From Trichoderma breve (lineage: Eukaryota; Ascomycota; Sordariomycetes; Hypocreales; Hypocreaceae): a DNA stretch of 64,000 bases. The notes under the pieces were generated by a model that worked only from the letters and a program-made list of their open reading frames with translations, was not told the DNA's origin and did no database searches. Numbering within the stretch: the stretch's first letter is position 1; each line of letters begins with the position of its first letter. The stretch is taken from positions 4,216,001-4,280,000 of the forward strand of contig NC_079233.1 in the NCBI RefSeq assembly GCF_028502605.1, in the 5' to 3' direction. This document shows, piece by piece, positions 13,034 to 46,195 of the stretch. The position numbers were made by a program, and so were the translations under genes.

Positions 13034-16000
13034 TGTGGATTGTTGTTGTTATGGGTTGGATTATTTCGTCTCTGTTCCGTTCCTTGTTTCACTTGTTGAG
13101 ATATTTTGCAGTGATGCAAGAGGAGAGCAGCAGATGTGAATGGTCAGACAGCATTCCCTGAAAGCCTTTGTCTTGTGAGATGGAGTTTCGTCCAATGTCT
13201 CAGATTATGTAGATGAAAAGTGATGAGTGGGCGAATTGCAAAGCGGCAAGTCTTCAGTAATTCAAAGGGTCAAGGAGGTTTTATATAACGAGAAGGAGGA
13301 AGGACACAAATTGACATCCCGGCGTGTAGGGCGCGTGATGGCGTTTATGTGACATTCAAGCCGTCTCTCCTCGGTCTTCTCCTCACCTTGGCTTTTAGAT
13401 CCCGACATGTGTGTGTGTACGCGACAACCCGGACATGTGTGCACGTATGCCGTCGTTACGCACACACACTCTGCTTCCTCTTTCTAACCCCCTGTACATA
13501 CCGAGTGCTTATCTCTACAACTTGGAGTCTCCGATCTCAGGCCAAGCGTCAATCTGTGTGCCACACCTCATCCACGCCTCTAGGCGACATGCGGACTAGA
13601 CGATGATAGCGATGGAGGCAAAAAAGACTCAGTTGCCACGACGTAACCTGACCAAGGCCGATAACGACGGGGACCTGATAGGGCGGCCCTGATAACAGCC
13701 GCTTTCCAGCCAACTAACGAGCTTCCAAGATATGCTAAGGGGCGGTGCTAAACCAGGGTTACCCCGGACTTCCCCAGATTTCTTCAAGCCCAGCAACCCA
13801 GCTCCGAGGCTGGCTTCCCAGAGACAATGGATCGGCGCGAGCGAGAGGACTTGGAAACCCCCTCCTTTTGTTCATGGCTTGCTTTAGTGTTGTCGCTTTT
13901 GCTGCTTTATGCCCGTTAGCAGTTTAGTGTCATGTCGTTGACTCCGGCGTTTCTCGTTTTGTGAGAGCTTGGTTCCCGGCATTTTCGCATTCTCTAAGGA
14001 CAAAAGCTGAGAAAGCGGCCTCTCCCGGCCGAGTTCGATGGAGCGCGTGCTAACGAGGCACAATCCCGCCCTTGACGCCGGCACCCTTGTCAGACCCGGC
14101 GAGTTCTCCGCTAGGAAACATATCCAGATGACTTTATCTGCGTATCTCGCATTGTTAGGTCTGATATGTGCCTTGATACCCGTCGATTTCTAATGGGATG
14201 CGAAAGTTTGCTGATTTGCATCACGTACGTGAATGTTTGCTGTTTATCTATCTGGTGTCCATGTTCAGATTGGGAAACTCGGCGAGAAGAGAGGGGTGGT
14301 TGGCTTCGTGCTTATTGAATGCTCGTACTGTACGCCAACGCACGAGTGCTGAAGCAAAGCCTAAACAATACAATGAATGTATCGGCCTGCTCCCGCGACT
14401 AATAGGTTGGCTCCGAAATGCGCATCGTAATGAATTGATGCTTCCGCAACAAATAGAGCAACTATCCAAAGCGTTGAACCTACGGCTTCGCTTAACCTCC
14501 GTATTCCCTTTTCGAGCCCTGTTACAGGTCCACAGATCGTGGGTTCTCCTGTCATCTAATACGCGGGGAAAGGAGAATACCGGGCTCGTGAATTCAATGG
14601 TCACTCAGCTGGATTCGCCGTTATCGTTTGTCCAGCGTCATCGTGGCGATGATCCGTTGTAGCGCCCAAAGTGGCGAAGATCCGGTGAGCGGAGCTGATG
14701 GAGTTTGAGGGGGAGATGCTTCCCGTCTTACCGGTCTTGGCAACGTCTTGACAGGGCATCAAAGCTGGTGCGCGTAAAGCTGTAAAAACGCCCCTTTTCC
14801 ATTGTCAAATAAAAACAACATTACCTTCTTGTTAATTAACTTTCGGGTTGTTAACAAAGTTGTTAGCATATGCACATGTTGTCATTGGATGTCTGCCGAT
14901 GCCAAAATGTTGACCGATAAGACATAGTGGCGATTATAGCGTTGCCTAGCAATAAAACCAAACAACGTCGTTACTAAATTTGGACAAGTAGGGGTGTTGA
15001 ATCGATTATATGTACATAATCCACGGCCATGCGGGCGCGAACAGCGGGAGCTGAAGATAGAAGCTCTGTTGGCAAGCGACTTTGGGTCCTAGGTTGGGCG
15101 TGAATTGCAGGGCAACCGGAATTCGACGGAAATTGGGCACACGCAGTCAGTTATCCATAAGCTCTAATGATGAACAACCAGGGATTGACTTTGTTGAGAA
15201 CAACTGAAGATACGTAATGAAAATATAATCGTTGCATTGAGACTGTAAAGCTCGGACTAGTGGGTGAGTAGATAGGAAAGTGATTGGCCTCAATTTTACA
15301 GAAATACGATGCAATGATACAATTTCTCCTCGAAGTAAAGTGCCACAGATCCAGCAACTTACTACGTGTACATGCATCATAAAAGGCGAACTGCAGTTGT
15401 GTGTGTGAATAAGATGAGTAGCAATGAGAATTTAGGCTGTAAGACACATGTATCTATGATACCAAATCTTATCATGGTATTCAACAGCATTTCCATTGTC
15501 CAATTTGTAAGTGATATAGATGTGCACATGGACTGTCGGTATCAATGATATTCAGCTCTGTTCCCAAGTGGAAGCCTCGCATACGTATTATTATATTAGG
15601 CTTTCATAGATCAAGTATAGTTATCACTTACAATGTATTTGGATTCGGGTGTGGAGTAGCAGTTGATGCCAGCCCAGCCATCCCCATTTTGCTTATCGTT
15701 CATTTCAGAGCACAATGCTTTGTGAAACGGAATTTGCCCCCTTATACTGAATAGGCTAATCAAATTCTTGATAGCTAGCTCCTGTGAGTGTGCAAGGCAC
15801 GTTTAATCCCTCGGGCGAAAGGAGCCTTGCAGGAGCCCGCTTGGAGTCCCATATTCTCTCAGCATAGCTAGAATAGCAAGTATCGAAGACCTGGTAATTG
15901 CCTATAGGTCTCACTCTCGCTGATATCAGCTTTATTGGCTGAAGATGACAGGATTAATGTTTCCCTGCTTAGTCGTGCCCAAAGTCTCAAGCTACAGAGC

Positions 16001-16332
16001 ATTCATAATCACTCTCAAGATTACAGCAGTAACTTGGCGCACACATGCCTTTGACTTAGCCAACTTGCCATTACTGGCAATAGTTGGTAATGTAAATATA
16101 TGATCTCCATTGTAATAGTGACTCACGGGCTATATTGACATTGCCTGACAGTTTGTTCTGACAAGAACTCTGACGATGTTACTCCAGGTAGAAGAGCCGT
16201 GCTGTTTGAAGTTGTATTTTCGTGTCCGTTCCTGAAACGCACATATCGGATATTTGTGAGAAATTAGGTGCAAAGAAACCTGCTAGACATTTATTGCAAC
16301 ACTTTTGGCAGAGCTTACATACATAACTCTGT
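13034..16332. other. Long intergenic region, no gene recognised
   Basis: About 3.3 kb without any convincing gene. The part next to the permease (13034-13300) is its promoter and leader. A short TG/CA-rich patch lies near 13400-13470. From roughly 14800 onward the sequence is AT-rich and full of stops in all frames. No transposon motif or inverted repeat was recognised. Confidence 0.45.
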
Positions 16333-18297
16333 TCAGTCTGTTAATCTAGCCAAAGGGAAGCTATGCCACTGATTCCTTCGATCACCCGGACTTCCTGGCC
16401 ATATATCCATCCAGACAGCTCTTAGGTCATCGCGCTCAAAGAAGTCATCCTTTAGCACGTCAAGGTCATCGCCAAAAGATTTGATTTTCTGAATGACTAG
16501 ACCTCCGTCACGAGAATTCCTTCTCACAAACCAGCTCTGTCCAACCCATTCCAGAGGGATTTTTGGTTCATTGTCGACCGAGAACCTCCCAAAGTTGCCA
16601 GCGCCATAGATCTTTAGTTTTAGATCGACAAGAGAATTGCCGCCAGTGTACGCTCTCGTAGTAGCGATTGTCTCAAAGATGGATTTGGCAAGGGCTGAAT
16701 CCATTGCGTTATTGATGAGCGCTGCGCGGAAAGCATCAACGGGTAGCTCCCAGCCACCCATTTCAATAAAAGATTCTCCATGCCTTACTTCGGGAGGATC
16801 GACGACAGAGCAGTCAAGAATCAGAGAGATATGTTTCAATCGTGGAAGCTGGCCAAGAATTTGATAGATGCCAACTTCGTCTCTATCACCACGGGTTCGA
16901 GGAATACGCAGCTCCAGCTTCTCTAGGTTCAAACATATGCCTGAAAGTAGCCTTATCCTACCACAGGAGAGCACGAGAGCTTCGATATCATCATAGTACT
17001 CCGAGGCTGGGGCAAAACGAAGCTCTCGAAGAGAATTGCCATGTTGATCAATCACTGCTCGCCAGGCGCTGTCTCCTACTTCACCTTCCAATTCGAGGCT
17101 CTGCAGTGGCTTCATAGCTCGCAATAGCCGACATACGGACTCATCGGCAGCTATTGCTTGCTCCCGATTTTGTGCTTTAGGCATTAAAGCGAGAGAAGAA
17201 AGAGAAAATAGTCCACCACCCTCTGCAATAATAGCCAGGGCCTGTACTGCATCGATAATAGTAAATCCCAGATGCAGTTTAGTTAGCTTGTTAAAGTCAG
17301 TATAGTCAGACCATTGATGAATGCGTAGCTCTGAAACTCCATTAAGGTACAAGGTGTGCAAACTCCCCTTGCCCTGCATTTTATCGCGTACTTGGTCGTC
17401 GTTGATGAAGAAACCCTTCCATTTCGGCTTACCAGACTGCCTGTGTAGCTGGATGGCATGGGCTAACTCAATGGTACCACCTACCGGTTGGCCAGCTATG
17501 CCAACATATGAGAGCCTTGGCGCTAAACCTCTAATCATCTGGATTACGGCTTCTTCATTGTATCCAATGTTACCATCTCCATCGTAAGAGCAATATTTCA
17601 TGTAAAGCCCATAGAGATTCAGCGATGTAGCAAGGGCATACTCCTCTGGCGAGATGTCGTGAGATTCGTTCCTTGGCTGATAGAGACTTCGAAGGCTGAA
17701 GGTATAAACATGTAGTCTGGCATCTGGGCAATTGTTGCGCAGCGCTGAGAGTAAGCACGACGGGACCTGAGTCATGCAATCATATACAAGATCAGATAAA
17801 CAGCTCAGTCGGCTGATGAATTTCGCTATTCCGACCCAGGTTTCTTGATACTTGATCTTCATCCGTAGTATCTCCTCTGGCGCTTGTGGTGGTTCCTTTG
17901 ACTCATAAAGAGGGGATCTCAATCTTGAGGGACAGAGAGGACTAGGCTTCGCAAAAAAGCTTTCCTCTTCAATCTCTTCACGTCCAATTTCGTTTTGTTC
18001 CGAGTCCTTTTCATAGGCCTGAGAACCACTAATCCTGAGATTACGAACAAAGCTAAGGCGGATGTTTATGTCGGGTATCTCATCCATGAAAATGAAACTT
18101 TCGTCTGGATTCAGTTGATCGATCTTGAGATGGATACGCCGGAGACGGAACCTCATGGCCGCAGAAGCGCACTGTCTATTCGCCAACGAAAATGCGAGTA
18201 GGCCGCCGTCTTTTGACGAATTCAGCCAGGAACATATACCCTCCAAAAGATGAAAAGGCAGCCTCTCTAATGGCGCTGAGAGGGTCTCGATTGGCAT
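16333..18297 (-). CDS. F-box-like protein with leucine-rich C-terminal region
   Basis: An intronless 654-residue protein. Its N terminus (APLERLPFHLLEGICSWL then LLAFSLANRQCASAAM, about residues 7-50) is a fungal F-box, the module that binds Skp1 in SCF ubiquitin ligases. The remainder contains irregularly spaced leucine-rich segments (such as LHTLYLNGVSELRI, LTKLHLGF, SLELEG, LRELRFAP) suggestive of a degenerate leucine-rich-repeat receptor for substrates. An acidic stretch, EIGREEIEEESFF, sits near residue 105. Large families of such F-box proteins occur in ascomycetes with unknown targets. It stands alone between two long non-coding regions, so context says nothing about its substrate. Confidence 0.78.
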   Translation of the reverse strand: MPIETLSAPLERLPFHLLEGICSWLNSSKDGGLLAFSLANRQCASAAMRFRLRRIHLKIDQLNPDESFIFMDEIPDINIRLSFVRNLRISGSQAYEKDSEQNEIGREEIEEESFFAKPSPLCPSRLRSPLYESKEPPQAPEEILRMKIKYQETWVGIAKFISRLSCLSDLVYDCMTQVPSCLLSALRNNCPDARLHVYTFSLRSLYQPRNESHDISPEEYALATSLNLYGLYMKYCSYDGDGNIGYNEEAVIQMIRGLAPRLSYVGIAGQPVGGTIELAHAIQLHRQSGKPKWKGFFINDDQVRDKMQGKGSLHTLYLNGVSELRIHQWSDYTDFNKLTKLHLGFTIIDAVQALAIIAEGGGLFSLSSLALMPKAQNREQAIAADESVCRLLRAMKPLQSLELEGEVGDSAWRAVIDQHGNSLRELRFAPASEYYDDIEALVLSCGRIRLLSGICLNLEKLELRIPRTRGDRDEVGIYQILGQLPRLKHISLILDCSVVDPPEVRHGESFIEMGGWELPVDAFRAALINNAMDSALAKSIFETIATTRAYTGGNSLVDLKLKIYGAGNFGRFSVDNEPKIPLEWVGQSWFVRRNSRDGGLVIQKIKSFGDDLDVLKDDFFERDDLRAVWMDIWPGSPGDRRNQWHSFPLARLTD

Positions 18298-20321
18298 CCT
18301 GGAATTTTTGCTGACTTTGTTTCTCTGTGGCTATGAAGTGAAGACGCGGAAGACTAGAGGACGGCGTCAATATCGGTGGGTAAGCTTTGATGTCGGAGAA
18401 AATTAGAGCACGGCAGGTTGTTCAAGGCCAGTCAGTGTTGCCGCCAGATGTCTGATTCCAACATTGAGCAGGTTGGGCAGATCGGTTATTATCGTGTTGT
18501 CAATTTATTTGTATAAGTAATGACAAGGGAAAGATAACGCAAAAATAAAAGTGGAAGAACAAATCATATATACCCCAAAAATGGTAAATTTCACGTGTTA
18601 TTCCTATTGCGCGGCCCGATTAGGCCGAGTCGTGTAATGAAGGCCCAACACCAACATGTAGCTGCAGTAACGATCACATACACGACTACGTGTACTTAAA
18701 TTTGAAGTGGATATAGGTAAGCATATCAAGTGGTACATCTATCTGGATGTCTCCCTGTCGAGGTCATGTTCATCAACAGCTCGTTCTCATGGTATTTTAT
18801 CTCCTGCGGGACATTTCCATGGACAACGGACCTGATTTTCATGAAAGACTCTGGCTTTAAGAAAGCTAAATAGGTGCTGACGATGACTGAGTTTACACTC
18901 CATGAAGGGACGCCAAGCAGGTCTCCCGTAATTGTCGCTATTCGGACCAAATTGGAAGGATACGTGCCCTCGTTCCGAAATGTCCAGCAGGTCTTCCCCA
19001 TGAACGCATATTACATGAAGAATGCTGATATTTAAAGGAGGGTAAAACTAGTGAAATAATCTTTGGCTAGATACAGATGGAACTTTATTCTCTCTGGTAG
19101 AATTTTCGTAGCTAGTGTATTGAATGAATGAATTATTTTATATCGAGTGCGCCAGAGAGTTCTCATTATATGGATATGTACTTTTTAGATGCAAATGTGT
19201 TATACTGGTGAACTAATGGTTCTTGACTAGAATAGGCCCTTCAATCATTACACTTTCCCCCTACAAGTCGCAGACTACGCCCGTTGTAAAATAGGATACA
19301 CAAAGTTTGCTGGATTGGATATCTATATTTGCTACAGTTCCATCTTCAGAAGGTCTATAACCGCCTAAGAGGGTAGGATTGATGTATCCTATTAGCACGA
19401 GGGTGCCGGGTACAACATCCGTAATCAACACCTATATAAGATAGAGCTATGACCCTAACCTCTTGGCTCTAAGCTGTTGAAATTGTAAAAAGGCCGAAAG
19501 CTAGAGGACTGTTGAGGCTCATGTATCGTTGGTTTCATCATAAGCCTCACGTCGTCTCACATGTCTCACATCCACGACTCAAGACCCATACCGTTAGGCC
19601 ATCAACCGCAACACCTCAGGTGACACTCTGGAACAAGCAGTTGTGTACAGACTTGACAAGTGCCGCGGCTCCCCTAAAAATGAATAGCCTATTGTTATCC
19701 CGAGTTGGAAGTGAATCTAATGCCAGCATAGCCCAACGCTCGGGGATCGCGCATGCCAATTTGCAGGTACAGTAGTAATCATCATCAATAGTGAGATCGA
19801 TTTGCGACTCTTGGCAGATTGCCGATATGAGAGGGTTACATTGTTTACCACATTACCCACGTTGCAGTCATGCAAACGTGCGCATCCGCATCTGCAACTA
19901 CTGTATGTCAGCACGGCCAAGACGAACGAACTCCACATGCACTGTCCACTTCAAGCCAAGTTACAGAATCTGCTTACATAGAAAGACTTGAAAGCTCCAA
20001 AAGCATATAGTTGTATATGGATACTATAACTGGCATATAAGATTTGGTTTTGCTTTAGTTAATCAACAGTTGGTGCCCATATTGAGGAGTGCCACACGTA
20101 GTTGCTAATATTGAACTTTGCGGCTGTGCATTGTGGCGCTCGTCTTCGTCTTGGCTTCTGCACTAAAAGAAGCATAACGTGCAAGCATCAAAACTTTGTT
20201 ATTTGACTGTATTGACGGCGCAATATCTTACAAAGCATTCGCTCTGTTAGAAAATTAATTTTTCTGGAGTAAATTTAAAGCCTGTGCCTTCAATATGTCG
20301 CTGAGTTGAACCGGTCGCTTT
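18298..20321. other. Intergenic region, no gene recognised
   Basis: About 2 kb, AT-rich, between the F-box gene start and the 3' end of the first UstYa-like gene. A 91-codon frame on the minus strand at 18726..19001 shows no recognisable motif and is not called. No structured repeat was seen. Confidence 0.4.
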
Positions 20322-21259
20322 TTATCCCTCAAAGGTCTCGAATCCTTGATTATCGTTGTACCGAAATCGCTCAGCCCAGTTTCTCAGTTTTCCAAAATCG
20401 CGACACTGGTGCGGAGTGCCGTATCCGTCTACACCCTTTCTATCCGCAGCGCTGTCAAATTTTGGTTTAAATGGCTCCAACGTTGAGTCGGATGTGCAGA
20501 GGATACTCTCTCTAAGGTAATCCAAGCAGTGGAGTGTGTGGGAGTGCGGTTCGGTGATGTTTGCTTCTAAAGCTTCGAAAAGGTCGGATTGAAGAAGATA
20601 CTGCATCAGGATCTGTTAGATACAACACACAAGAAAATGATGAAGCAAAGTTAGTAATAGATTGTTCACATACTAGACAGTGCAACTGGTGAAATACTGC
20701 GACAGAGAATCGTCCGGTGCCATCTGTGCTGGTGTCCTGGACATAATCGGGCACTGGACCTGCGGCCTCTATGTTTTTTATTGAGACATATCCCTTTCCC
20801 TCTATATCATCACACGTCAGATGGCTGTGTTATATCGTATGAGAATGTTGAAGGGCGTACTTGGGAACAGGTTCATCCACGCTTTGTGGCCTTGCTCCGT
20901 GCGAGGGTCATCATATACCCTCTCAGGCATAAAGGCTTTATGAATCGGTCCAACTATGATCTCCCGTTAGTTGTAAAAGAAGCAACGAGAACAAAATGAA
21001 AAGAATTTTGCCTACGAGGGGGAATGTCCAGTCCTGGAAGTAATTTTACATTTTCCCTTGGCCCAGCTCCGGGCTGTACACTTTTCCATACAATGAGGCT
21101 CACTGCGACGGAAATCACTGAACTCAGCAAAGCAACGAGAGAAAGCTGTATAATCCCAAGATTGGCTCTTCTTTTCTCCATCATTTGTAGAGAAAGACTC
21201 TCGCTCTTGGAGCCCAACAGCGTGTCTTCATCTTCAGAGCCAGAACTTCGCCGAGACAT
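20322..21259 (-). CDS. UstYa-like (DUF3328) oxidase A of candidate RiPP cluster
   Basis: Four exons (21259..21016, 20953..20861, 20801..20674, 20612..20322) with three canonical 59-62 nt introns give 251 residues. A single transmembrane helix (about residues 35-60, LSLVALLSSVISVAVSLIVW) follows an acidic Ser-rich cytosolic start. The luminal part has the family blocks: FMPERVYDDP and GHKAWMNLFPKGKGYVS, then the two histidine/cysteine motifs FHQLHC and HTLHCLDYLRES. Those HxxHC motifs are the proposed metal-binding residues of UstYa-type enzymes, which oxidatively cyclise ribosomal peptides such as ustiloxin, phomopsin and asperipin. It lies tail-to-head with a second paralogue and about 2 kb from a repeat-bearing precursor gene. 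A role in tyrosine crosslinking or beta-carbon oxidation is inference. Confidence 0.88.
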
Positions 21260-21818
21260 AATGCATTACTTGGAACCAAAAGATCAAAGCAACTCCCAAG
21301 ATAGGGAACCAGTTGTAGTTTGTCTGGAGTTATCCACCAAAACGAAGTCGGGCGACATCATGTAAGCGATTAATTTAGTTGAGCTGTGCTAAGAAAGGAA
21401 GTTGGCTGTGCACAATGAGGGGCATAAGACAAACTACCTCATGTGCTTGGCGGGGACTTGACCCTGCAGATGCAAAAGTCCTGATGGTGATAAACGCCTT
21501 GCAAGTGAGCAATCACCAGAATAAGTGGCGACAATGACGTTTCAAATGGCTCGATCAACGACGTCTTGTGCTGTTCCCAGCTTGCCTTGCATACTGTATG
21601 TCGAATAGATTTAGCCGATGAAGGTTAAGTCGGCACAAACCTAGCAAAAGTGCATCTAAATCACACCCACAATAACCGTGGACGGTTAAGATGTCTGTGT
21701 TCATGCCCACTGAGAATCCACAACCTTGCATAATCTTACAGCCCATCCATGTAGTATAAAAACACTCATTGACTATTGTTTGTGAGCCGTCCTCGTACCA
21801 CACACAATTAGTGTCTTT
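21260..21818. promoter_or_regulatory. Intergenic spacer between the two UstYa-like genes
   Basis: About 560 bases containing the promoter of oxidase A and the 3' end of oxidase B, which are transcribed in the same direction. No conserved operator was recognised. Confidence 0.35.
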
Positions 21819-22781
21819 CTAAGGCGCGATATCTAGGATCTTATCACCCTCTTGCAATTCCACCACCATGTCCTCGAGACTTTGGTGTGCATGAACCCAC
21901 TCTCTTACTGGTTCCCAGTCGATGCACTTGTGGTTCGTGTTGAAATCCACGAAAGAACCATCTATGCCCTGAGCCGGGTCTTTTACCCAATACTGTCCGA
22001 AAACGCCTAAATCCGGCTTACACTGGATGACCTGCCGTAGCATGTCGATGCAGTGTGTGACATGTTTGGCAATTGTCTCCTCATCTTTTCCAAGGTGGTG
22101 CCCGGGGTAGTCGGGGTCTGAGTAGTAATTGTAATTGAAATAGACGGATTTGCGGATCAGATTGAGGCAGTGCAAGTGGTGATTGAACTCGAAGAGAACT
22201 GGGAAGTCCCCCGATGGGGTTTTGAGATGGTCGGAACTGATTCCAGCACGTTCTGCCTGAGATTTGGACAGTATGAGCGGTTTTGAAGTGGTACCAAGAC
22301 CTTCCCATGCTTCGTCCACCTCTGGAGAGGGGGGAAGGCGGAAGGCGGAGGTCGAGTTGGCGAGAAATGTCCCATCATAAAGAACAGAGTGATAATGAAT
22401 TGGGATATCAATGGGAGTAGCTGGAAAAGAGTTAATCGAACCGTGCTCACAAGAATGTTGGAAAAGGACAAACTCAAACTCACGATTTTCTTGCGTATGC
22501 CGTACGCACATTGCGTCGAGGTAGGAAGCCCTGTGGATGTAGAGATATGTCAAGACATGAGAGCCTAGAGATACTCCCAGTAAGCCGATCAAACAGTACA
22601 AGAGTATATTCTGCCGTCGATGACTTCTGGTCTGCCCTTTCCCGAGCATTGAGCCCCCTAAGAAAGGGTCTGACTCTTCAATAGAGCTTTCATCTCTTTC
22701 CCTCTGCATATCCATTTCTGTTGACTTGCAACTGATTACAGTAACAATCTGAGTTGCTTTGTTTTTTCTTGAGTCGTACAT
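21819..22781 (-). CDS. UstYa-like (DUF3328) oxidase B of candidate RiPP cluster
   Basis: A second UstYa family protein, about 299 residues if the probable intron is removed. The reading frame is open throughout. However, 22421..22483 has a perfect GTGAGT donor, a GATTAAC branch-like site and a TTTCCAG acceptor and is exactly 63 nt. Removing it joins TQEN to PTPIDIPIHY, the usual family sequence. A transmembrane helix (ILLYCLIGLLGVSLGSHVL) follows a charged N terminus. The luminal part contains LPPSPEVDEAWEGLG and the paired motifs NHHLHCLNLIRKS and HVTHCIDMLRQ. These HxxHC motifs identify the oxidative cyclase family of fungal RiPP clusters. The start may be at 22781 or at the internal ATG at 22715. 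It is divergent from the precursor gene across 523 bases, suggesting co-regulation. Confidence 0.88.
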   Translation of the reverse strand: MYDSRKNKATQIVTVISCKSTEMDMQRERDESSIEESDPFLGGSMLGKGQTRSHRRQNILLYCLIGLLGVSLGSHVLTYLYIHRASYLDAMCVRHTQENREFEFVLFQHSCEHGSINSFPATPIDIPIHYHSVLYDGTFLANSTSAFRLPPSPEVDEAWEGLGTTSKPLILSKSQAERAGISSDHLKTPSGDFPVLFEFNHHLHCLNLIRKSVYFNYNYYSDPDYPGHHLGKDEETIAKHVTHCIDMLRQVIQCKPDLGVFGQYWVKDPAQGIDGSFVDFNTNHKCIDWEPVREWVHAHQSLEDMVVELQEGDKILDIAP

Positions 22782-23304
22782 TAAAAAGTTTCAAGCTTAC
22801 CTTTCTTTGAAAACAACATAATGTGACTGATACGGGTTAGCTCATTCTCATTGTTGTTCTCGGTTATCGTCGCCTATGTATGTAAACCCCCGTCATGATA
22901 TCAATGACTATTTTAGCTGCATTGTCATACAGGTGTTGGGACCACACTCGTATCTACAAGCATGGAATCCACGACATCTCACCTTCCATTTGCAGAACAT
23001 CAAGACTTTTTTCGGACAAACCTTCGGAATCACGGAATTCTTATGCCTTGGCACGATCAACTACTCGGACAAATTGTAAGCCTGTTAATAGGCATCAGAA
23101 CTAGCTTGTATTCATTCACAAAGCAGGTTCCGTTGGGGACTGCCCCCCACTGACTAATGAGCCCCATTTGTCGCACACGACACTGTGATGGTGGGATTAG
23201 ATATCTTAAAGGAAGAACGATGCCACCAGATCCGATCTCTTTGACTTGTGTTTAATAATTATCCCACCAAAGATATTTGATTCGCTACCAATATCACTAT
23301 CAAA
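22782..23304. promoter_or_regulatory. Divergent promoter between UstYa-like oxidase B and RiPP precursor
   Basis: These 523 bases separate the starts of two divergently transcribed cluster genes and so should carry both promoters. A CCAC-rich AT patch directly precedes the precursor ATG. No specific binding site is claimed. Confidence 0.5.
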
Positions 23305-23832
23305 ATGAAGACATCTCTTTTCCTCAGCTGCATTACACTTGCGGCCACGGTGGCTGCTGCTCCTGTCCCTGTAAACCATTCACTTCTTATCCTCTATCTT
23401 CTCAAAGCTAACTGCTTGCTCTTTTCCTAGGGATCGGACGCTGTTGCTAGCTACGAATGGAAGAAGGACACCCAGAGCACTGATGGTGTTGCCAATTATG
23501 AATGGAAAAAGGATACTCAAAGCACGGACGGTGTTGCCAGTTATGAATGGAAGAGGGGTACTCAGAACACTGATGGTGTTGCCAGCTATGAATGGAAGAA
23601 GGACACCCAGAGTACTGATGGTGTTGCCAGTTATGAATGGAAGAGGGGTTCTCAGAACACTGATGGTGTTGCCAGCTATGAATGGAAGAAGGACACTCAG
23701 AGTACTGATGGTGTTGCTAGCTATGAGTGGAAGAGGGGTTCTCAGAACACTGATGGTGTTGCCAGCTATGAATGGAAGAAGGATACTCAGAGCACGGATG
23801 GCGTTGCCAGCTATGAATGGAAAAAGGAGTAA
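23305..23832 (+). CDS. Secreted repeat-containing RiPP precursor (UstA-like, kexin-processed)
   Basis: Two exons (23305..23370 and 23431..23832; intron GTAAAC...CCTAG) encode 155 residues. Exon 1 is a signal peptide (MKTSLFLSCITLAATVAAAP). Exon 2 is almost wholly repeats: one 12-residue leader unit, eight 15-residue units of the form (D/G)(T/S)Q(S/N)TDGVASYEWK(K/R), and a terminal Glu. This gives nine Tyr-Glu-Trp cores, each directly followed by a dibasic KK or KR. The layout matches ustiloxin-type (dikaritin) precursors: signal peptide, tandem copies, a Tyr-containing core just before a kexin site, and UstYa-like genes alongside. Expected processing is cleavage after the dibasic site, trimming of basic residues, and oxidative cyclisation by the neighbours. 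The exact core length and the product are unknown. A long frame on the opposite strand is a shadow of the repeat. Confidence 0.9.
23443..23829 (+). repeat. 45-bp coding minisatellite, nine copies (first partial)
   Basis: Tandem near-identical 45-nt units, each encoding one core and one dibasic site. Units alternate between two sequence types: those opening GAC/GAT-ACT (Asp-Thr) and those opening GGT-ACT/TCT (Gly-Thr or Gly-Ser). Differences between copies are mostly synonymous or confined to the spacer, whereas the TAT-GAA/GAG-TGG core is invariant. The alternation suggests duplication of a two-unit (90-nt) block after an earlier single-unit duplication. Confidence 0.9.
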
Positions 23833-24389
23833 AAGGGATACTAGCAACATTACCAAAGACAATTAACAGGTTACTATTATAGTGTTCAAATTAAGCTTCT
23901 GTAAACTCAAGTTATCAAGTCCCCGCTAAAGATGGTAAAAACTCGTTCAATCCAGAATTCTTCTCTGTTCTTTTCATATCTTAAGACTGAGTAATTTGAT
24001 TCATTTCAAAACACAATTCGCTGCCGTATGCTCTATTAGGTGCTGAAATGATTGATGAAGCATCACTTGGCTAATTACAGAGCACCGGCAAAATAAATGC
24101 CGGCTTTTCGCAATCTGTTTCCTTGGTTCCGTAACGTGTCTTGGCAAGTCTTTTGGCTGTCAAGTGTTACAGAGGTTCGTATTCAGGTAGCGGCCGTCCC
24201 CTGCTCAATTTTTGTTCTAGTATCTTTCTATATTCAGAACTGATATCAAGGTTGCTAACGAAAGTTCTTTACCTCAACAGGATAAACAGCTCACAACCCC
24301 ACCATTCAGTGACAATGCATCGACCAGGGTGACTCCCGGCCTTGATTAGCCACTGTGGTTATTAAGCCACCAGGTAGCTGTGTTACGGA
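23833..24389. other. Intergenic region, no gene recognised
   Basis: About 560 bases between the convergent ends of the precursor gene and the reductase gene. It contains their 3' untranslated regions. Nothing else is seen. Confidence 0.5.
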
Positions 24390-25536
24390 CTAATTCCCTA
24401 AACCATTGGTATCCGATATCCTCACAACAAGCTTAGTTGCGCTAACTGAACCATTCTTCAAGCGTGTAAGTGCGCCCTCTAGCCCGTGAAGCCCGCCGGG
24501 CACTACTTCATGCGGATGCGCGCTGAACCAGCCTTCATTCAATCCTCTACCGATGAATCTCAGCATGACAGTTGTGAAATGCGTGATTCCTACGCTTTGT
24601 CCCTTGGAGTTAGGCCAGGTAAGCGCGTCATTGCCAAGGTCTACCTGGCTTGTTTCAACTGCTGAGTTGATAAGCGAAATCCCCTCCGGAATTAGATCGG
24701 ATGGAATGTTCAGTACAACAGCAATCTTCCCAATAGTTTTGTTTATCACCCGAGAGATGTTTAGAACCGTTTCCTTTTCGCTTACAGCATCAAGGGCGAA
24801 TTCCGGCTCTTTGTTGCCTAAAGCTGCCTTGATCGCTTCGACCACAGCATCGTCTCCTTGACGATAGTCAACAATGGTGTCGCCACGAGACCTGTCGATA
24901 AGCGTCTCTACAAAATCGATTCCCCTTCCTGCGACTGCGACGATAGGATGAATATTCGAGAGGGCGGCTAGTTTCACAGCGTAGGCACCTACAGCCGATG
25001 CCGCGCCGTAAATGATGAATGGCTGAGGTCTATCGCAAGGATCCCAAGGGTAAGGGAGTGGGAGACGGCGATATAACCCCAGACAAGAGGTAATGGCTGC
25101 CAGTGGAACAGTTGCAGCTTCTGTTCAGCAGAGTTAGCGGTTCGTGTATCTTCTCCGAAAAGTGACTTTGAGACTAACCTTCGAAAGAGACATGGTCGGC
25201 CAGATGAAATGCCATGCTCTCCCAAGCAATAGCATACTCAGCCCAGCCCCCTCCCGGGCTCAATGTTTTATGGAAGACGCCCACTCGGTCGCCGACTTTG
25301 AACTCGGTTATACCCTGGCCAACTGTATGAACAACTCCTGAAAAGTCGTCGCCCTCGTTGGAATAAGTGACTCCGGGTACGGCACCATCTGCTACTTTCC
25401 AGTCCTTGGGGTTCAGTCCAACGCAAGACACCTTGACAATCATCTGAAATGGTCCCACAGTTGGTATAGGGGATTCGACAACATCAACCTTGGGCCCTGG
25501 ATATGCGAGTGCCTCCTTCATTCTGGATATTGGCAC
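24390..25536 (-). CDS. MDR-family zinc-type alcohol dehydrogenase / enoyl reductase-like oxidoreductase
   Basis: Two exons (25536..25179 and 25120..24390; intron GTTAGT...AACAG, 58 nt) give 362 residues. The N-terminal GroES-like part shows GLNPKDWKVADG, the GDDFSGVVHTVG block and FKVGDRVGVF. The splice yields FEEAATVPLAAIT. The Rossmann NAD(P)H-binding motif is IIYGAASAVGAYAVKLA near residue 165. The catalytic zinc ligands of true alcohol dehydrogenases are not evident, so it resembles the quinone-oxidoreductase/TOXD-like trans-enoyl reductase branch. It is convergent with the precursor gene. Asperipin-type RiPP clusters also carry a reductase, which makes membership plausible, but such MDR genes are common anywhere in fungal genomes. 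Confidence 0.85.
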
Positions 25537-27689
25537 AGAAATTGACAGACAGGATATCCCTTATTCGCAGCAGGGAGTTGATACAAATATCGCCAGAGGC
25601 TCTTTCTTGAGTATATGCTCTCAAAAAAAGTATTGCATCATTTATTTTCATGATCATAAAATATTTATATAAAGTCTAAAGCGGACTTTAACAGACAACG
25701 CCATCTGTCTCATGCATCATTGAATCGCGACAGAGCGGACATGGGAATAACTATTATTAATATTTCCGTAATTGGGAATTTTCAAGGGAATATTGGTCGG
25801 GTACCCCTTGAAGCTTAGAAATCGTTAATATCAAGAACCTACCCGTCCTTTCTCTTTCTGGCCGTGAAGTTCCAGTAGTGCCCATATCTATGCTCAAGAA
25901 GGCAACTCATGAGTGGGGCATGGAGTTGCAACAGTTCTCAGAAAGGCATTACATAGAAGCTTCCGCCTCCGCAAGTCCGCATCACAATCCTAAACATACG
26001 CAAGTACATGTATGTATGTAATAAGCTTAAAGCGCATACTCCCCGTGATTCATGAATGAATGGATGACTTGTGGTTCCGCGTCAGTAACTTCAAGTTTTC
26101 ACCAGTGCAATACTACACAGGTACTAGTGGCAACGACAAAGCGGAACTCTGCTCTGGGTCCAAGTACCAGATATAGATATGTATTAGGCAGCAAACGTTT
26201 CAAATCTGCTGCGTCAGAAAAATGAGTGTTTCCACAAGCAAACTAAACCTTTGTGCCAGAGTAACTAGACTTAGCTCACTATTTCTAGCCACGTTTACGT
26301 GTAACACCAGGAATGCCAGAGGAATATTGTCAGGGGACGTGTATCGTAGGTCGGAGGAGATATCACAGCATCACAAGTGAATGTCCCACTCACTTCACAT
26401 TTGCGCGTCAGCCACGTCCCTGGCGGTAACACGTGCGTCTGTGAGATTCACGGAGCCCGCGATGATGTTAAGACTCAAGATGGACAGCCGAAGTCTCCAA
26501 TTGCCAAATTTTCACATGCCACTAGACCCCGGCGAGATTGATATGTCGAATGTGCATAACCTCTAGGATGCGCTCCAGGGTTGGGACGTCCGTTTCTTAG
26601 AAAAGTCACCGCATCGCCGAGAGTCAGCGTGGTGGTAATGCTTAGGCTCCTGATCCAAAGTCACTTATCTGTAGGCTGTAGATATAGTCGCCTTTGTATG
26701 ACAATGGCACCGCCGACAAACAAAATGTAGCCTCGAAATAGGACTGCCTGGCGTCGTTACGCCCCCATCGATATCAAAAATAGTTTAGACGATAAATCGT
26801 ATGTGCTGAGATACCAACGGATTAAAAGGTTCCCTCTGAAGAGATCCTAGCTCGAATGAGTTTCAGGAAGCCGGTGGGAAGATGCTTCTTCCACGTCTCT
26901 AGAGTCGTGCTAGCGTTTGGTAGTGATCAAAGTCTCCATACTGTTCAGTAACTGTGGCTACAGTCTAATGCCAAGGGTGATAATGAAGATGAAGTATTTT
27001 CAGTCATAAGGACCGTTTGTAATCTCTATGAAGAGCCCCCTCCCAACATCTCTTCCATCGATGTGAGAGCTGTACCGGGCTCTGGATGGCAGCCGAATGA
27101 TGTTGTACTCGCCGCAGCATCAATACATACCGTCACAACTAATATCATTGTCCTGTTCTCAGCTCGTAAAGGCGCTAACCCTTGAATGAGTGACTGCGAA
27201 GACGTCATTTCAGGATCCTGCAGCAGAATGGGAACATTGTCAAAGTCAAGATACAGCTTTATAGGGACTTGCAAGTCTGGTCGCGGGTTGATCTTGCACA
27301 CGATATCACTGTATCGATGATTTGCACGTGAATACTGCTTTTGACCAGGCTGATGAATATTACCAACAAAGCCGAGACACAGGACTCAACCATCTCATCT
27401 ACACCTTTAAACATTACAGGCGGCAACATCTCACTGATTAGTCTCAACTTCGTGACAGAAGGGGAGATTATTGTCCATAGCAATGCAACAGCTGAAGCAT
27501 TGTTAGAGGCAATCGTGTTATAACTATTCCTTGTGAGGGGCTTGATAAACTTAGGATGGATAAACAAAGTGGCCTAGTATGCTGAGTACTATCTAAATAA
27601 TAACTACGCCTGCCCCCAAACCAGAGTATTCTACATACATATAAGCTGTGGGCAATTAAACCAAATCGAGGTTAGGAATATAACACAGT
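25537..27689. other. Intergenic region, no supported gene
   Basis: About 2.15 kb. Two moderately long overlapping minus-strand frames lie at 27026-27567, but they have no motifs, no convincing splice linkage and no start context, so they are not called. The remainder is AT-rich and closed in all frames. Confidence 0.4.
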
Positions 27690-28124
27690 TTATCTGCACC
27701 AGAATCTTAATTCTGTGACCCCATTGCCTATCTCCGAGTTAAGGTAGAGAGCGTCGCTGCAGGAAACATCTTTATCCCAAAGATGCTGTCTGACAGTTTT
27801 CCAAGCTCCCGGCACGCTTGAAGAATATCTGCACTTACAACCCCATCCGTCGTTGAAATGGCCTACCTCGGCGGCAGATTTCAAGCCCCATTGACCAGCC
27901 ATTTTGTCCATGCACTCTTGATACCAGCCATCGTGATGTGCACCCGCAATATGGGCGTTGCAACGGACCATTACCACAGGCCCGAAGATCGCTGCGGCTT
28001 TGGAGGGCGTGGTTGCGTTAACATGAGTGGCAGCATCCACGGCAAGACTGTGGGCGCCGCCCCAGGTGCCAAATAAAGCCAGAGCAGGTAGTCCAATAGA
28101 TATACGTATCTTATCCCTAATCAT
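27690..28124 (-). CDS. Small cysteine-containing probable secreted protein (function unknown)
   Basis: A 144-residue intronless frame. A short basic start is followed by a hydrophobic segment (ISIGLPALALFGTWGGAHSLA) consistent with a signal peptide. The mature part has six cysteines in the segments MVRCNAH, YQECMDK, WGCKCRY, VSCSDA and the terminal FWCR, an even number compatible with three disulfides. The size, the cysteine content and the location in a gene-poor AT-rich stretch are reminiscent of small secreted effector-type proteins. No family is recognised and no function is proposed. It could be an expressed orphan gene or a chance frame. The signal-like start and even cysteine count favour a gene. 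Confidence 0.5.
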   Translation of the reverse strand: MIRDKIRISIGLPALALFGTWGGAHSLAVDAATHVNATTPSKAAAIFGPVVMVRCNAHIAGAHHDGWYQECMDKMAGQWGLKSAAEVGHFNDGWGCKCRYSSSVPGAWKTVRQHLWDKDVSCSDALYLNSEIGNGVTELRFWCR

Positions 28125-30357
28125 AAGATCCTGTAGATTAGCTTTCCTGTTTTACTAGATTGTCATTGTTATGGGGGCATCTGCAGGACAACATACCAAT
28201 TAACAGAATTTAAGGGACTGAAAAAACGCAAGATAGCCCTCCTTTAGTTTCTGAGGGGATAAAACCTGAAAAGTAGGATCAGGATGTTCTATATTGGTTA
28301 GAAAAGACAGGCTTGGTGAATGACCTCTTTCATTTTCCGGCCAATTAAGCATCTTATAAAGGATGTGAGGGTTAGCAAAACTATTACAGCTAGGTCAATG
28401 AAAGGCTATGCAGGATCAAAAATTAGGATCAATCCTTAGCTCGTTTCAACCGGTGATGACTGATTGTTTGTTTGTTTGCTTGTTGTCTATGAAGGATCCC
28501 GCTGGCAAAGTAATAAAATCCCCTATGGGCAAAGAGGTTGGCCTGAGCTGGATATGTAAGTATTACCGCTCTCAATCAAGCAAACAGGGGACTATTCTAA
28601 GTCCGTCGTCTGATATAGGAAATAATAAAAAGAAATCTAGGAAAGCCCTTCTGCGCTATGAGAAGGGGGAAAGCCCCCAAGTAATAAATGCCTCTAAAAT
28701 ATTAACATAATCTCTAAAGAATACGAGCCCTTTTCTCTTTCTTTCCGATTATTACTACGGTATAAGGTAAATTAGTTGGTAAGCATATTGCTGTAGCCTA
28801 TCTTCTGGCAGCCGATTTACTCCAGTTAGTGAGCCTGTATTGAGTTATTTGCTAGTGTAATTGTTTGTTTGGAAGCAGCGGGCCGAAAGCCCAAGCTGAA
28901 GCTGTAAATAGCCGCGGTATAGCGTACGCAGCCGGAGCATAAGCGCATAACTACGGGTAGGTTGCATTGTAGCTATACTTATAGCTAGCTAGCACAAAGC
29001 CGGCGAAGGCGTAAGATTCAGGAAGATTGTGAGGTTATGGTTGGAGGAAGCCATAGCCGGAGCCAGGTTTTGGGGAAAGTCAAGTTCCTTGAAGGAGAAT
29101 AGGCTTATAGAAAAGACGATACCCTTTCTTTTAATATGCTCATTAGTATTTAAAAGAAAAAGGATTGAGCGTCTTTTAGTTGAGCGAAGGAGGTACTGTA
29201 ATGAACTCTTCAAATTCCCTCCTTTTGTGTGCTGTTAAAGGTTACCAAGCTTTGCCAGCGATTTTTGGCATAAGAGTCCTAGAATTACCCCACTTCTGCT
29301 ACTGCCGCACCAACAGCTGTAAAAACGGGGAGATGTTCACAGGGAAGAGTTGGTATAACTGATTAAATAGTATGCAAGGCATAGGCATAGCCAAGGGAGT
29401 TCAGGACCGGCCGGAGACATAAAATTCAATGAAACACAACAGAACAGCTGGCTTATAAAATACGATCTATCGTTCAATCACTCAACCAATGTAAAAAGCT
29501 AGTTGATCCATTTGGTTATAAAGGCAGCGACAATCCTACCCAAAGTGGATTGCACATTCCTTTCAAGATCAAACAACTCCACGAAACAAAGCAACAGGCA
29601 CCAAGAACCCCAAACCTACCAAGGCGGCAATGATAGTCATCAAATTGGGCGATAAAGCTAGTTGAAGGCAGCAAAACAAGCTTCCTCCATACTGGTATAT
29701 TCGATTTAATATCACCAGATCTAACTCGCATCATCTTAATAAGTTCTGCTGCTCGTTTCAACTTCTTCCCCTAAATATTCTCACAATTTTGTCATTGTCA
29801 GACTTCATGTATACTTGATGTTAAAACAGACTCTGTTTGTTCTTCGGAAAGCTACTTTCTGTGCACTGCCGTTTGATGCTATCCGTGGGTACATGCGGTA
29901 AGCCAGGAGTGTTGGTTGAAATAAACTGCGGGCGTGTCTCGTTTGCGCCTAGTCTGGCGGATCTATACCTCTCAATGGCGAAAGATTAAGTATTCATGAA
30001 ACATCGGGCGAATGCACGATCCTTTCGGCAACGATACAATATTAATTCCCTCATCAGATGTGGAGAAAATGACTGATTGAAATCTGTTGGCATCGGCAGG
30101 CGACAGGCCGCATTGACCATCCAGTGACACCCTCTCTGATCCTGTGCTCTTATTCTGACTCTTGTTCTCGGCCTCGCCGATGACAACCTTGATAAGCCGT
30201 GCGGTGTCTGTCTAGTGGGTAAAATCATGCCATGCCACCCTTAGTCTCTCATAACTTTAACCTTCTTCTCGTTCTAGTCCTCCCAAGCCCGACCTTTTGA
30301 TGCCATTTCATTCCCATTATCCAAGTCTCAACACAACATCCTCCTCGATTTGTTTCC
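28125..30357. other. Gene-poor AT-rich stretch, possibly decayed repeat
   Basis: About 2.2 kb with no recognisable gene. Between about 28850 and 29450 there are many TAG/CTA-rich words (such as tagctagctagc) mixed with short GC-rich patches. That composition often results from degenerated transposable elements in ascomycetes. No terminal repeats or transposase motifs could be read. The last few hundred bases are the MFS promoter. Confidence 0.3.
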
Positions 30358-32035
30358 ATGGCTTCCAGTCAGGATGGGGAGCAAGCCCCCCTTCTACAAG
30401 CAACTCATCATGTCGACAATGCCAGAGAACCTGCAGTCGGCAATGCTCCCCTATCATGTCTGGCTATCATTGTTAAATGTCTTCTGTTGCTTGCCTTTGT
30501 TGGTATTGGAAAGGCACTCATTATAACACCAATAAACCATATACAAGAAGACATTCTATGTCACAAGCCCAACATGAAGGACACAAATGTTCCAGACAAC
30601 TCCGCTTGTGAACACGACAAATTGTCTCTACTTCGAAGCTGGACAGCTGCTTTCGAAATGATCATGAATTTTTTGACCGCTGCGCCATATGGTATGGCGG
30701 CTGATATATATGGACGTAAACGAATACTCCAATTGTCCATTGCGAGTATCATCTTGGCGCAGGCATTTGACGCGGTTATATGTGCGTAGATATAAATCAC
30801 GACATATTCGAATACGTCTGGACCGATTGGCTGACTGACCTTATCACACTGCAGGTGGTTTCCCAGAAACGTTCCCAATCCACTTAATGGGGTTGAAGGG
30901 ACTTTGGGCTCTAATAGGGGGCGGTAGCACCGTTCTTTCGGCTATGACGTTCACCATAGCAAGTGACATCAGTCTAGATACGCAAAGGTAAGTTGTCAAG
31001 ACTTCCCTCATTTACTTTTCGCGCAAATTGTTAACATCCTTGGCTGGTCAACTACGTTCTTTTATCTTACAGGTGCTGCAATCTTGAGTCAACTGGTCTC
31101 CTACCCGGTATTGCTGGCTCTTGAATATGCAGGCAGCTGGATATCCATATACTCCGGGTTTGGTTGCCTAGCCGCATCGTGCTTTATCACGCTCTCCTTG
31201 CCAGAGACTCGCGTACCAGATCTCAGGAGTTGTGGCCTAATGATGGCAACCGAGACACGAATCCTATCGTTTTACGACTTTCGACTCACGCAGTTCCTAA
31301 CATCAATGGCCGGGTTAACCCATCAAATTTTTGCCGAGAACAAGAAGCTAGGCGTCCTTATAGTTTTCTGTGTGTTCACCACGACGGGCAGCAACTTACC
31401 ACTCCTCGTCACCCAGCAATCTTCACAACGACGAGCCGACTCCGCAGACCTACCAGTTAGTTTAATATATTCTGCGAAAGGCATTCTATGAACCATCTTC
31501 CATCGCTGACCACCTGACATAGATCCTTATATCGATGACTTATTCTAGCTTTTTGAAAGTCATTTTGTTGACCATGATACTACCGCTGACCAGCCGCTTC
31601 CTGATCGAGAAGCTACGCTTTAGCCCACTGAGAAAAGACATGTCTATCTCACGGGCTAGTATTGTAGCTCTTGTGGCCGGATCTTTAGGGATAGCAATTG
31701 CAAAACATGTCCAGTCTACCATAGTGATCGCAGCCATCTACGTCTATGCTCTTGGGTGCGGCTATAGCCCAGCTATGTATAGCCTCCTTGGCCTTTTGTC
31801 CGGGGGCAATCACATTGGCATATTGTATGCAACCATTGGCGCTATGCAAAGCGTAGGTACTTTTATAGCTGTCATAATGTTTGGGGCCTCGGTTGAAATC
31901 GGGCCCTTTATTTTCACATTTTTGTTCCTAGCCGTTGTTGTGGGTACTTTATTTTGTTTACAGTTGGAAGAGACAGAGGAAGGAGAGCCAATTTGGATTG
32001 ATCTGGATTATCTTGAATCGCACAGCAATCAGTAA
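30358..32035 (+). CDS. Major facilitator superfamily transporter with one apparent GT...TG intron
   Basis: Four exons (30358..30781, 30855..30987, 31047..31455, 31523..32035) give 492 residues. About twelve membrane segments are present, with the MFS loop motif GMAADIYGRKRILQLS between helices 2 and 3 near residue 125. A luminal/extracellular loop with cysteines (ILCHKPNM, DNSACEHDK) follows the first helix, as in a fungal MFS subfamily. Introns 1 and 3 are canonical. Intron 2 starts GTAAGT at 30988. The only boundary that restores the expected DTQR to STTFFYLTGAA junction ends ...GGCTG at 31046, 59 nt long with a TTAAC branch-like site but a TG instead of an AG. The next AG (31072) shifts the frame to an early stop. 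A weak GTGACA donor at 30963 with that AG would keep frame but delete conserved residues. The gene may be functional, misread or an incipient pseudogene. The substrate is unknown. Confidence 0.75.
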
Positions 32036-45016: not shown

Positions 45017-46195
45017 CTACTGCAAGTTGGCAAAGCCCATTGTTCCATCGTCGACGTTGTGGTCAATGTATTTGCCCTGGAAGAACGCCTGTCCAACCAA
45101 CCACTGGCTACCAAACTCACTCGTCCCGTGGATACTAGCTGTGCAGTTGTTGCCATTTTGGCTGAATGCCAGGGCCTCGGGCAAGATGTTGAAGTTGTTG
45201 CCGCCGAATGCCAATCCAATGGTGGGCGGCGCATCACAGGCGTAGTAGCCAGTGATGCCATTGCTGTTTGTCACAGCTTGGATGCCCGCCTTCTGGAACA
45301 GCGTCTTGACCTGTGAAGTAGGCCCGAAAATGACAGTCGTGCCGGAGTCTGTGATGATGGAGGCGCTGCGCTGAACCGTCGCGCCGTTCACCGTGACATC
45401 GCCAGTGACGATCCACTCGTCGCTGGCTGAGACTGAAGTCAGGCTGCCGCTGAAGGTGTCCGTCGCAACAGAACCATAGTAGAGCGTGCCGGTCTCGTCC
45501 GCGTTGAGCGCCAGCCCGAAGCGGCAGGATGACAGCGTTCCTTGGTCGCAGAGACTCTGGAAGAATGGCGTCTGGCCGAGAGCACTGCTATCGATGCCTG
45601 CGTAGCCGATGAGGCCGTCGTGAGGGAAAGTCGGCGGTGACTTGGGGCTAGTGATGGCTCCAAGGTACTGCTGGGAGACGGTCAGGTTGGCGCCGTGTTG
45701 AGTGATGACATCTCGGTAAACTTGGCCCGACGCCTGCTGTTGGTCAGTAACCACGACATTTTCGGTAACTGATGTTTATTTTCCACTTGCAGACAAAGTT
45801 CCAGATCCATCAGGATTCGTCGTGGCGTATGAAATTCGGAAGGTCTTCTTGGTGTTGACCGAGCTGGAGCCAGGCTTGTAAATGCCCGGGTTCAAGATGG
45901 CGTCAGCGGAGCCGGTATCAATTAGGATCTCCAGGTTGGAGCTGCCACCGATGGTGAAATTGGAGAACCAGAAGCCCTAAGTATATTAGCATTTCAAACT
46001 GACATAATAGTATCGTAGGGATTCAATTACCTGGTCAGCCCAGAGATCCGCTGTTCCTTGCACCAGCCGTCCCTTTGCTGTGGCAATGCTTTTCGCAGCC
46101 ACGGCATCGACCTTCTTGAAGTGCAGAGGATGCGAGAAGTCGGCCTGGACAGCTTGAATAGCCGCCAACAGCGACAGCACCGTTTTGAATGACAT
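45017..46195 (-). CDS. Secreted pepsin-like aspartic protease (A1 family) with a GC...AG intron
   Basis: Three exons (46195..46031, 45976..45791, 45736..45017) give about 356 residues. The protein has a signal peptide (FKTVLSLLAAIQAVQA), a propeptide with dibasic-poor sequence, then the two catalytic aspartates in ILIDTGSADAIL and SIITDSGTTVIFGP. The C-terminal WLVGQAFFQGKYIDHN block is the usual A1 ending. It would be an extracellular or vacuolar acid protease. Intron 2 is non-canonical but of a well-known kind: donor GCAAGT at 45790 and acceptor CAACAG at 45737, joining GSGTLS to QASGQVYRDV. Moving the acceptor to the next CAG removes one Gln and is equally good. No GT donor before the in-frame TAA restores the frame with a consensus site. 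Confidence 0.87.

Follow-up and report, generated by a model that had tools for sequence, protein, structure and literature searches.

Do a short secreted repeat protein and the oxidase genes beside it, in the genome of Trichoderma breve, constitute a ribosomal peptide pathway? Dikaritin clusters combine UstYa-family oxidases with a secreted precursor whose repeats carry Kex2-type sites (PMC7329392, PMC12048977), and an earlier note on this DNA had proposed a candidate dikaritin-type RiPP cluster. Analysis of the window (the whole stretch of 64,000 nucleotides) and of the remaining genome indicates that this is probably what the cluster is, with a UstYa pair that would oxidise a released repeat peptide. 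The anatomy fits the proposal, but the YEW macrocycle and four-gene pathway that formed part of it are to be read as suggestions. The cluster type has already been described, and the present member appears to be undescribed: neither a YEW dikaritin nor the present cluster turned up in the titles, abstracts and passages searched. The main text of the survey of KEX2-processed repeat proteins (KEPs) by Umemura (2020, PMC7329392) does not mention the YEW repeat, which may be in the supplementary lists. Features of the distinguished genes are collected in the table.

Table. Coordinates of the cluster genes and of further genes in the window.
Feature	Position	Strand	Details
KEP precursor gene	23305-23832	+	one intron, 155 aa
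Precursor exon 1	23305-23370	+	signal-like leader
Precursor intron	23371-23430	+	
Precursor exon 2	23431-23832	+	nine YEWK(K/R) repeats
45-bp tandem array	23442-23828	+	8.6 copies; Tandem Repeats Finder
UstYa-family gene A	exons 22715-22484, 22420-21819	-	277 aa, one intron
UstYa-family gene B	exons 21259-21016, 20953-20861, 20801-20674, 20600-20322	-	247 aa, three introns
MDR/LovC-like reductase	24390-25521; exons 25521-25179, 25120-24390	-	ADH_N domain
MFS match, weak	31535-32035		21.2 bits, below cut-off 33.4
Amino-acid permease	11396-13033		
Aspartyl protease	45017-45754		

The precursor begins with a hydrophobic, signal-like segment (judged by hydropathy and by eye) and continues with nine units of 15 aa, each with KK or KR. 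All nine YEW motifs reported previously were confirmed, and each is followed by K(K/R), with KK in six cases and KR in three. Its repeats agree with the KEP definition, which asks for three or more in tandem, each 8 aa or longer, between KR, KK, RK or RR; the definition also calls for an ER signal peptide, for which the hydrophobic segment is a candidate. Its array is the only one found by Tandem Repeats Finder in positions 15000-32000. A comparison of the eight full units gave pN/pS values of 0.13 overall, 0.02 in TDGVASYEWK and 0 in YEW, and this purifying selection between units indicates that the array is maintained as protein. Since the most conserved segment is TDGVA(S/N)YEWK, YEW can be regarded only as a minimum core; the motif stands nine times, as the earlier note had it, and would be a putative core. 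Degenerate DNA for YEWK(K/R) matches the 38.5-Mb genome exactly at 14 sites, of which nine are in the precursor and five are scattered singles, and a search of the same genome with the whole precursor returned only its own two exons. A weak Pfam match to DUF4850 (27.6 bits, cut-off 22.5), with no single stretch that passes alone, was taken as a repeat artefact.

Genes A and B encode proteins with one hydrophobic helix each and matches to Pfam PF11807 (DUF3328) of 142 bits and, for the first gene model of B, 93 bits (cut-off 25). The pairs of HxxHC motifs (HHLHC/HVTHC in A and HQLHC/HTLHC in B) contain six His and Cys residues that are invariant in a 15-row alignment of A and in that of B. Both genes, described before as adjacent, single-helix and with paired HxxHC, are intact; the gene models offered for both needed splicing, which was set to agree with orthologues, and the listed gene A was an unspliced ORF. 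Orthologues of both are present in many Trichoderma species in the protein database. In all five genomes for which an A and a B orthologue are both named among the matches listed, the longest contig given is equally long for the two, and those of T. asperelloides have consecutive locus tags (005107/005108). In predicted single-chain models of the orthologues P0028 and P0002 (mean pLDDT 68.5 and 70.0; pTM 0.54 and 0.58, respectively) paired helices carry the HxxHC motifs, an arrangement also described for the binuclear copper DUF3328 enzyme CctR. A search by sequence for relatives of gene A with solved structures gave three matches (E 0.66-1.6), which were taken as chance.

The precursor and gene A are divergent, with starts 589 bp apart. 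The reductase, placed beside these genes by the earlier note, is convergent with the precursor and lies 557 bp downstream of it. Its better start is the ATG at 25521, not 25536, and its intron is one of four GT-AG options keeping the frame open. The best full-length PDB match of this protein is LovC, and no relatives (E ≤ 0.01) were found in the DNA fetched at the 17 other UstYa loci; for these reasons its membership of the cluster is doubtful. The candidate pathway would consist of the adjacent precursor, A and B, with or without the reductase. No tyrosinase gene lies near the cluster, as had been stated, the genome's only matches to that family being at C4:756433-757316, on another contig. 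Among 30 scanned proteins of the window (the four cluster proteins and 26 selected from 161 listed ORFs) we found no methyltransferase or flavin monooxygenase, and no transporter or peptidase adjoining the cluster.

Co-regulation of the genes is unsupported, because no word is common to all three promoter regions. Words occurring in two regions number 12 (9-mers), 5 (10-mers) and 2 (11-mers), against 9.3, 2.5 and 0.6, respectively, expected in simple shuffles, and were set aside as evidence. CGG...CCG sites in these regions are few.

Repeat arrays were identified within about 3 kb of UstYa matches at 12 of the 18 UstYa loci of the genome, and six of these arrays contain Trp. A strict dibasic-repeat test was passed at nine of the 18 loci, by none of six control stretches and nowhere in the remaining 63 kb of the window. 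The arrays failing it are L053 and L055, where dibasic sites are mostly or wholly missing, and L043, with variable residues ahead of KR. The count includes L041, whose signal-peptide exon was unseen, and leaves out the low-complexity arrays L042 (at the L043 locus) and L058, as well as short 15-bp arrays in L005, L021, L027 and L029; an array with dibasic rows in a further reading frame (the window, L041 and L065) was counted once. The nearest relative of gene B within the genome is at C6:4045.6 kb (46-59% in pieces). The surrounding locus (C6:4040-4055 kb) has a similar order, with a UstYb-like gene, a UstYa gene on the minus strand and a KEP gene on the plus strand, but its repeat is of 21 aa and of other sequence, and an extra UstYa fragment lies between.

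We infer the fate of the precursor, and any role of its product, from the genes. The precursor would enter the secretory pathway, where Kex2 would cut it more readily after KR than after KK, and basic residues would be trimmed from the released repeat peptide. Two membrane-anchored, copper-type UstYa enzymes would oxidise this peptide, most likely on Tyr of the conserved TDGVASYEW segment, and the modification could be a cross-link, hydroxylation or dehydrogenation. Calculated [M+H]+ values are 497.2031 for YEW (495.1874 minus 2H, 493.1718 minus 4H), 655.2722 for ASYEW, 926.3890 for DGVASYEW, 1458.6019 for DTQSTDGVASYEW and 3123.3814 for the two-unit GTQNTDGVASYEWKKDTQSTDGVASYEW, and any of these could be shifted by minus 2H, minus 4H or plus O. 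Points against the dikaritin reading, besides the promoter comparison, are the following. Only three of the nine dibasic sites are KR, and no precursor homologue was found in the protein database at E ≤ 10 (four candidates shared words with it), despite the A and B orthologues in many Trichoderma species. Such a homologue may be unannotated or fast-evolving, or the precursor may not be the conserved substrate of the enzyme pair.

This absence would suit a repeat protein that yields linear, unmodified secreted peptides with signal or antimicrobial function, the UstYa pair acting elsewhere. Most KEPs have no UstYa neighbour (6120 of 7878, against 1758 with one), and W is similarly frequent in both groups, occurring in 20.5% of the repeated sequences of UstYa-neighboured KEPs vs 24.5% of those of the others (PMC7329392); moreover, Coprinopsis cinerea was shown to contain linear KEP peptides with a terminal SW (PMC9769878). 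We nevertheless consider this unlikely, as the precursor starts beside and divergently from gene A, arrays recur next to UstYa genes at most of the loci described above, and each repeat contains Tyr, on which the modification falls in known members. A pheromone, or a repetitive protein of the cell wall or surface, that undergoes no oxidative tailoring is very improbable: the precursor repeat does not have the pheromone-like core motif WC...CW. Both kinds of repeat secreted protein do occur in fungi (PMC6339444), but a UstYa neighbour was reported for just three of 216 annotated fungal pheromones (PMC7329392).

Cutting at KR only would change the product to two-repeat peptides of about 30 residues, in which an uncut KK joins two YEW units. 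Within units 3-8 the KR and KK junctions alternate, with G after KR and D after KK; units two apart are more alike (identity 0.90) than adjacent ones (0.835), and Kex2 prefers KR or RR to KK (PMC6339444). However, the alternation is broken in the initial units and at the final junction, duplication of a two-unit block alone could yield it, and KEP surveys list KK as a Kex2 site (PMC7329392, PMC9769878), so that we rate this outcome as slightly less likely still than linear peptides. Within the dikaritin reading, we put forward tentatively, and with considerable doubt, that the Trp of YEW is cross-linked or oxidised to Tyr by the copper UstYa pair in the absence of a tyrosinase, possibly across two YEW units of a KR-released 30-residue peptide, which might belong to a family of UstYa peptides with Trp that this genome encodes.

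Only five dikaritins were listed as reported in a 2022 review (PMC10512285), common though KEP-UstYa gene pairs are. If the cluster works as proposed, a young family of copper enzymes would gain Tyr-Glu-Trp as a substrate, and the dozen or so candidate pairs of precursor and enzyme in one Trichoderma genome, which differ in their repeats, would offer a test of UstYa substrate range. Trichoderma is a genus used in biocontrol.

Membership of the UstYa family alone is no proof of a peptide substrate, because such genes also occur in polyketide clusters, as reported for T. virens (PMC7303927). CctR, the cyclochlorotine hydroxylase, resembles the A and B proteins in its single membrane helix and in HxxHC...HxxHC on a helical lumenal domain, but it hydroxylates a non-ribosomal peptide, while the substrate presumed here is ribosomal (PMC12435403). 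The cluster shares with ustiloxin B a KEP precursor, a repeated core just before a dibasic site and paired UstYa and UstYb; it differs in its core and in the enzymes missing from its surroundings (tyrosinase nearby; methyltransferase and flavin monooxygenase among the scanned proteins). The original five-gene definition of dikaritins includes the tyrosinase and methyltransferase, as well as a transporter or peptidase. Asperipin-2a provides a precedent for a small cluster without a tyrosinase (PMC6514808). Its four genes likewise comprise a precursor, a UstYa homologue and a reductase, but it has a single UstYa homologue, a transporter (AprT) and an isoflavone-reductase type enzyme (AprR) (PMC6514808), in place of which the present cluster has two UstYa genes and an MDR/LovC-like reductase, with no adjacent transporter found. 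With the UstYa-neighboured KEPs described in PMC7329392 it has in common a signal-like leader, tandem repeats between dibasic sites and an adjoining UstYa gene. According to a newer definition, the class-defining enzyme of dikaritins is a DUF3328 protein with two HxxHC motifs (PMC12048977), and two genes of this kind adjoin the repeat precursor here.

A candidate dikaritin-type RiPP cluster had been proposed in the earlier note, with a secreted precursor carrying nine Tyr-Glu-Trp (YEW) motifs, each followed by KK or KR. This precursor is real: it is a predicted KEX2-processed repeat protein (KEP) with 15-aa repeat units, in which the nine copies of YEW precede KK (six times) or KR (three times). 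Tandem Repeats Finder detected a single array in it, with a 45-bp unit in 8.6 copies. A degenerate DNA search of the 38.5-Mb genome for YEWK(K/R) gave 14 occurrences (nine inside the array and five lone and scattered), and the whole precursor had no match in its own genome besides itself. Among the eight full units synonymous differences are common and amino acid differences rare, which argues from the sequence that the array is under selection as a protein. The overall pN/pS ratio of these units is 0.13, based on uncorrected proportions and with concerted evolution of the repeats as another possible cause of low values; by part, TDGVASYEWK has 0.02, YEW zero, and the linker together with the last basic residue 0.27. 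The conserved segment of the unit, as judged from these ratios, is longer than the three residues of YEW.

Features of the window and UstYa loci with repeat arrays
Feature	Position (nt) or locus	Strand	Remarks
HET-domain protein	3569-5449	minus	heterokaryon incompatibility
Gene B, Pfam UstYa match	21259-20322	minus	247 aa, orthologue-guided model
Gene A, Pfam UstYa match	22715-21819	minus	277 aa, orthologue-guided model
Precursor gene	23305-23832	+	60-bp intron right behind signal-like leader; product 155 aa
Reductase gene	24390-25521	minus	convergent with precursor gene
ORF without Pfam match	27690-28124		144 aa, hydrophobic N-terminus, several Cys
PNP_UDP_1 ORF, then ORF with GPIID winged-helix match	48076-53995		many ankyrin repeats in the second ORF
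11 other UstYa loci with arrays	L033, L035, L036, L041, L043, L049, L051, L053, L055 (with L017), L063, L065		most with dibasic sites

On the model of the known family, as presented in PMC9769878, PMC7329392 and PMC12048977, the precursor would enter the ER and be cut by Kex2 in the Golgi after its dibasic residues; Kex1 would then trim the released peptides, and the UstYa enzymes would oxidize them. The KR-G and KK-D junctions alternate in the array, a pattern that would also suit cleavage at the KR sites alone, with two-unit peptides as the real substrate. We consider this improbable and prefer cleavage after KR and, less readily, after KK. Since Tyr is the residue altered in ustiloxin, phomopsin and asperipin, it would, by analogy, be the likeliest target of modification.

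The two oxidase genes predicted beside the precursor, with paired HxxHC motifs and one membrane helix, were confirmed. Comparison with orthologues revealed an intron in gene A, through which the plain ORF runs, and served to place the last splice acceptor of gene B. Close to its N-terminus each protein has a single hydrophobic helix. The His and Cys residues of its two HxxHC motifs do not vary in either 15-row alignment; when the alignments are widened to 21 rows, most of these residues remain invariant and the others are at least 90% conserved. In AlphaFold models of moderate overall confidence, made not from the window proteins themselves but from orthologues of B (P0028, pLDDT 68.5) and A (P0002, pLDDT 70.0), the motifs lie on helices. 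This predicted arrangement matches the description of CctR, in which a binuclear copper site is formed on paired HxxHC helices in a dimer (PMC12435403).

The best named database matches of the oxidases are from Trichoderma. Gene B shares 96% identity over its full length with a protein of Trichoderma sp. SZMC 28013 and 97% with a T. harzianum fragment (65% covered), a result that points to the Harzianum clade. Gene A orthologues are present in several species of Trichoderma as well as in Xylogone (65%) and Mariannaea (60%). Both orthologues are named in five genomes (SZMC 28014, T. chlorosporum, T. ceciliae, T. asperelloides and Xylogone). In each of these the longest contig listed is equally long for the two, and in T. 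asperelloides the locus tags are consecutive; we read these protein records as pointing to a conserved pair. The chief result against a conserved three-gene unit is that a search of the same protein database found no homologue of the precursor.

The MDR reductase noted beside the pair has an ADH_N domain (Pfam). Among its PDB matches, the lowest E-value belongs to a partial match with a plant homologue of chloroplast quinone oxidoreductase, and the enoyl reductase LovC matched across nearly the full length. No relatives at E ≤ 0.01 were found in the DNA fetched for the 17 other UstYa loci; the protein may act in tailoring or may simply be a neighbour of the cluster.

Neither tyrosinase nor flavin oxygenase had been seen nearby, and the Pfam scan of the four cluster proteins and 26 ORFs, selected from 161 stop-to-stop window ORFs of at least 90 aa, agreed: tyrosinases, flavin monooxygenases and methyltransferases were all absent from this set. 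Across the whole genome, the hits to tyrosinase (PF00264) are two pieces close together at 756 kb of contig C4, with no UstYa locus nearby. On the far side of the reductase, at distances of approximately 6 to 32 kb, are an aspartyl protease, a P450, two alpha/beta hydrolases and a weak MFS piece. The window also contains a HET-domain protein, an ankyrin-repeat region that looks like a fungal NLR-type protein, and a Cys-containing ORF that is possibly a small secreted protein.

At least 46 matches to PF11807 were found in the genome, grouped by position into 18 loci; at the 17 other loci, roughly 3.5 to 5.5 kb of DNA was scanned on each side. Under the strict rule, an array was a stop-free stretch of at least 50 aa in which three or more dibasic sites are preceded by the same three residues. 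Nine of the 18 loci contain such an array, and 12, window included, when Tandem Repeats Finder arrays are added. The strict rule detected none in the controls (six 6-kb stretches and the 63 kb remainder of the window), a small sample in which Tandem Repeats Finder covered the window only. The nearest UstYa match is within about 3 kb of the arrays, which include AGWG-KR/RR (10 copies), DKQHYD-KR/RR (13), TNDYPKYGKFGEFEAVNNE-KR (7), GGGCGYYG-KR and DKLQNLFYVPAGAEGE(S/T)PE-KR (8). By reading, Trp is present in six and Tyr in seven of the 12. Within this genome, gene B has its nearest relative at 4044-4055 kb of contig C6 (L020, L010, L035), near a contig end, together with a UstYa gene and a KEP in a gene order similar to that of the window cluster.

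Two secreted-looking repeat proteins beside UstYa genes mostly or wholly lack dibasic sites: in L053, 8 of the 11 HNRLW units continue with KD and two with KK, and in L055/L017, GVDTAEIFAR carries a single Arg. These may therefore be processed by another protease. Many UstYa loci are close to contig ends (for example C5, 4085 kb of 4199; C6, 4045 kb of 4070; C2, 7097 kb of 7139), unlike the window cluster, which is internal. For comparison, the paper on T. harzianum PAR3 gives 38 and 37 UstYa-like proteins for two assemblies, and its abstract is not about RiPPs (PMC10416523).

An earlier Trichoderma RiPP survey mined antiSMASH clusters of four species with RiPPMiner, and its results text contains no description of the present precursor (PMC7099791). 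Our literature search found no report of a YEW dikaritin, although the supplementary lists of Umemura, outside this search, may contain it. Overall, the original observation is real and its broad reading sound, and the product chemistry put forward with it is a reasonable guess. Perhaps more useful is the wider result that about two thirds of the UstYa loci of this genome have a repeat precursor paired with the UstYa genes. The window cluster belongs to the class of KEPs with a DUF3328 neighbour, which accounts for 1758 of 7878 KEPs in the account of Umemura (PMC7329392). It falls outside the older five-gene definition of a dikaritin cluster but within the newer one, as these are given in PMC12048977.
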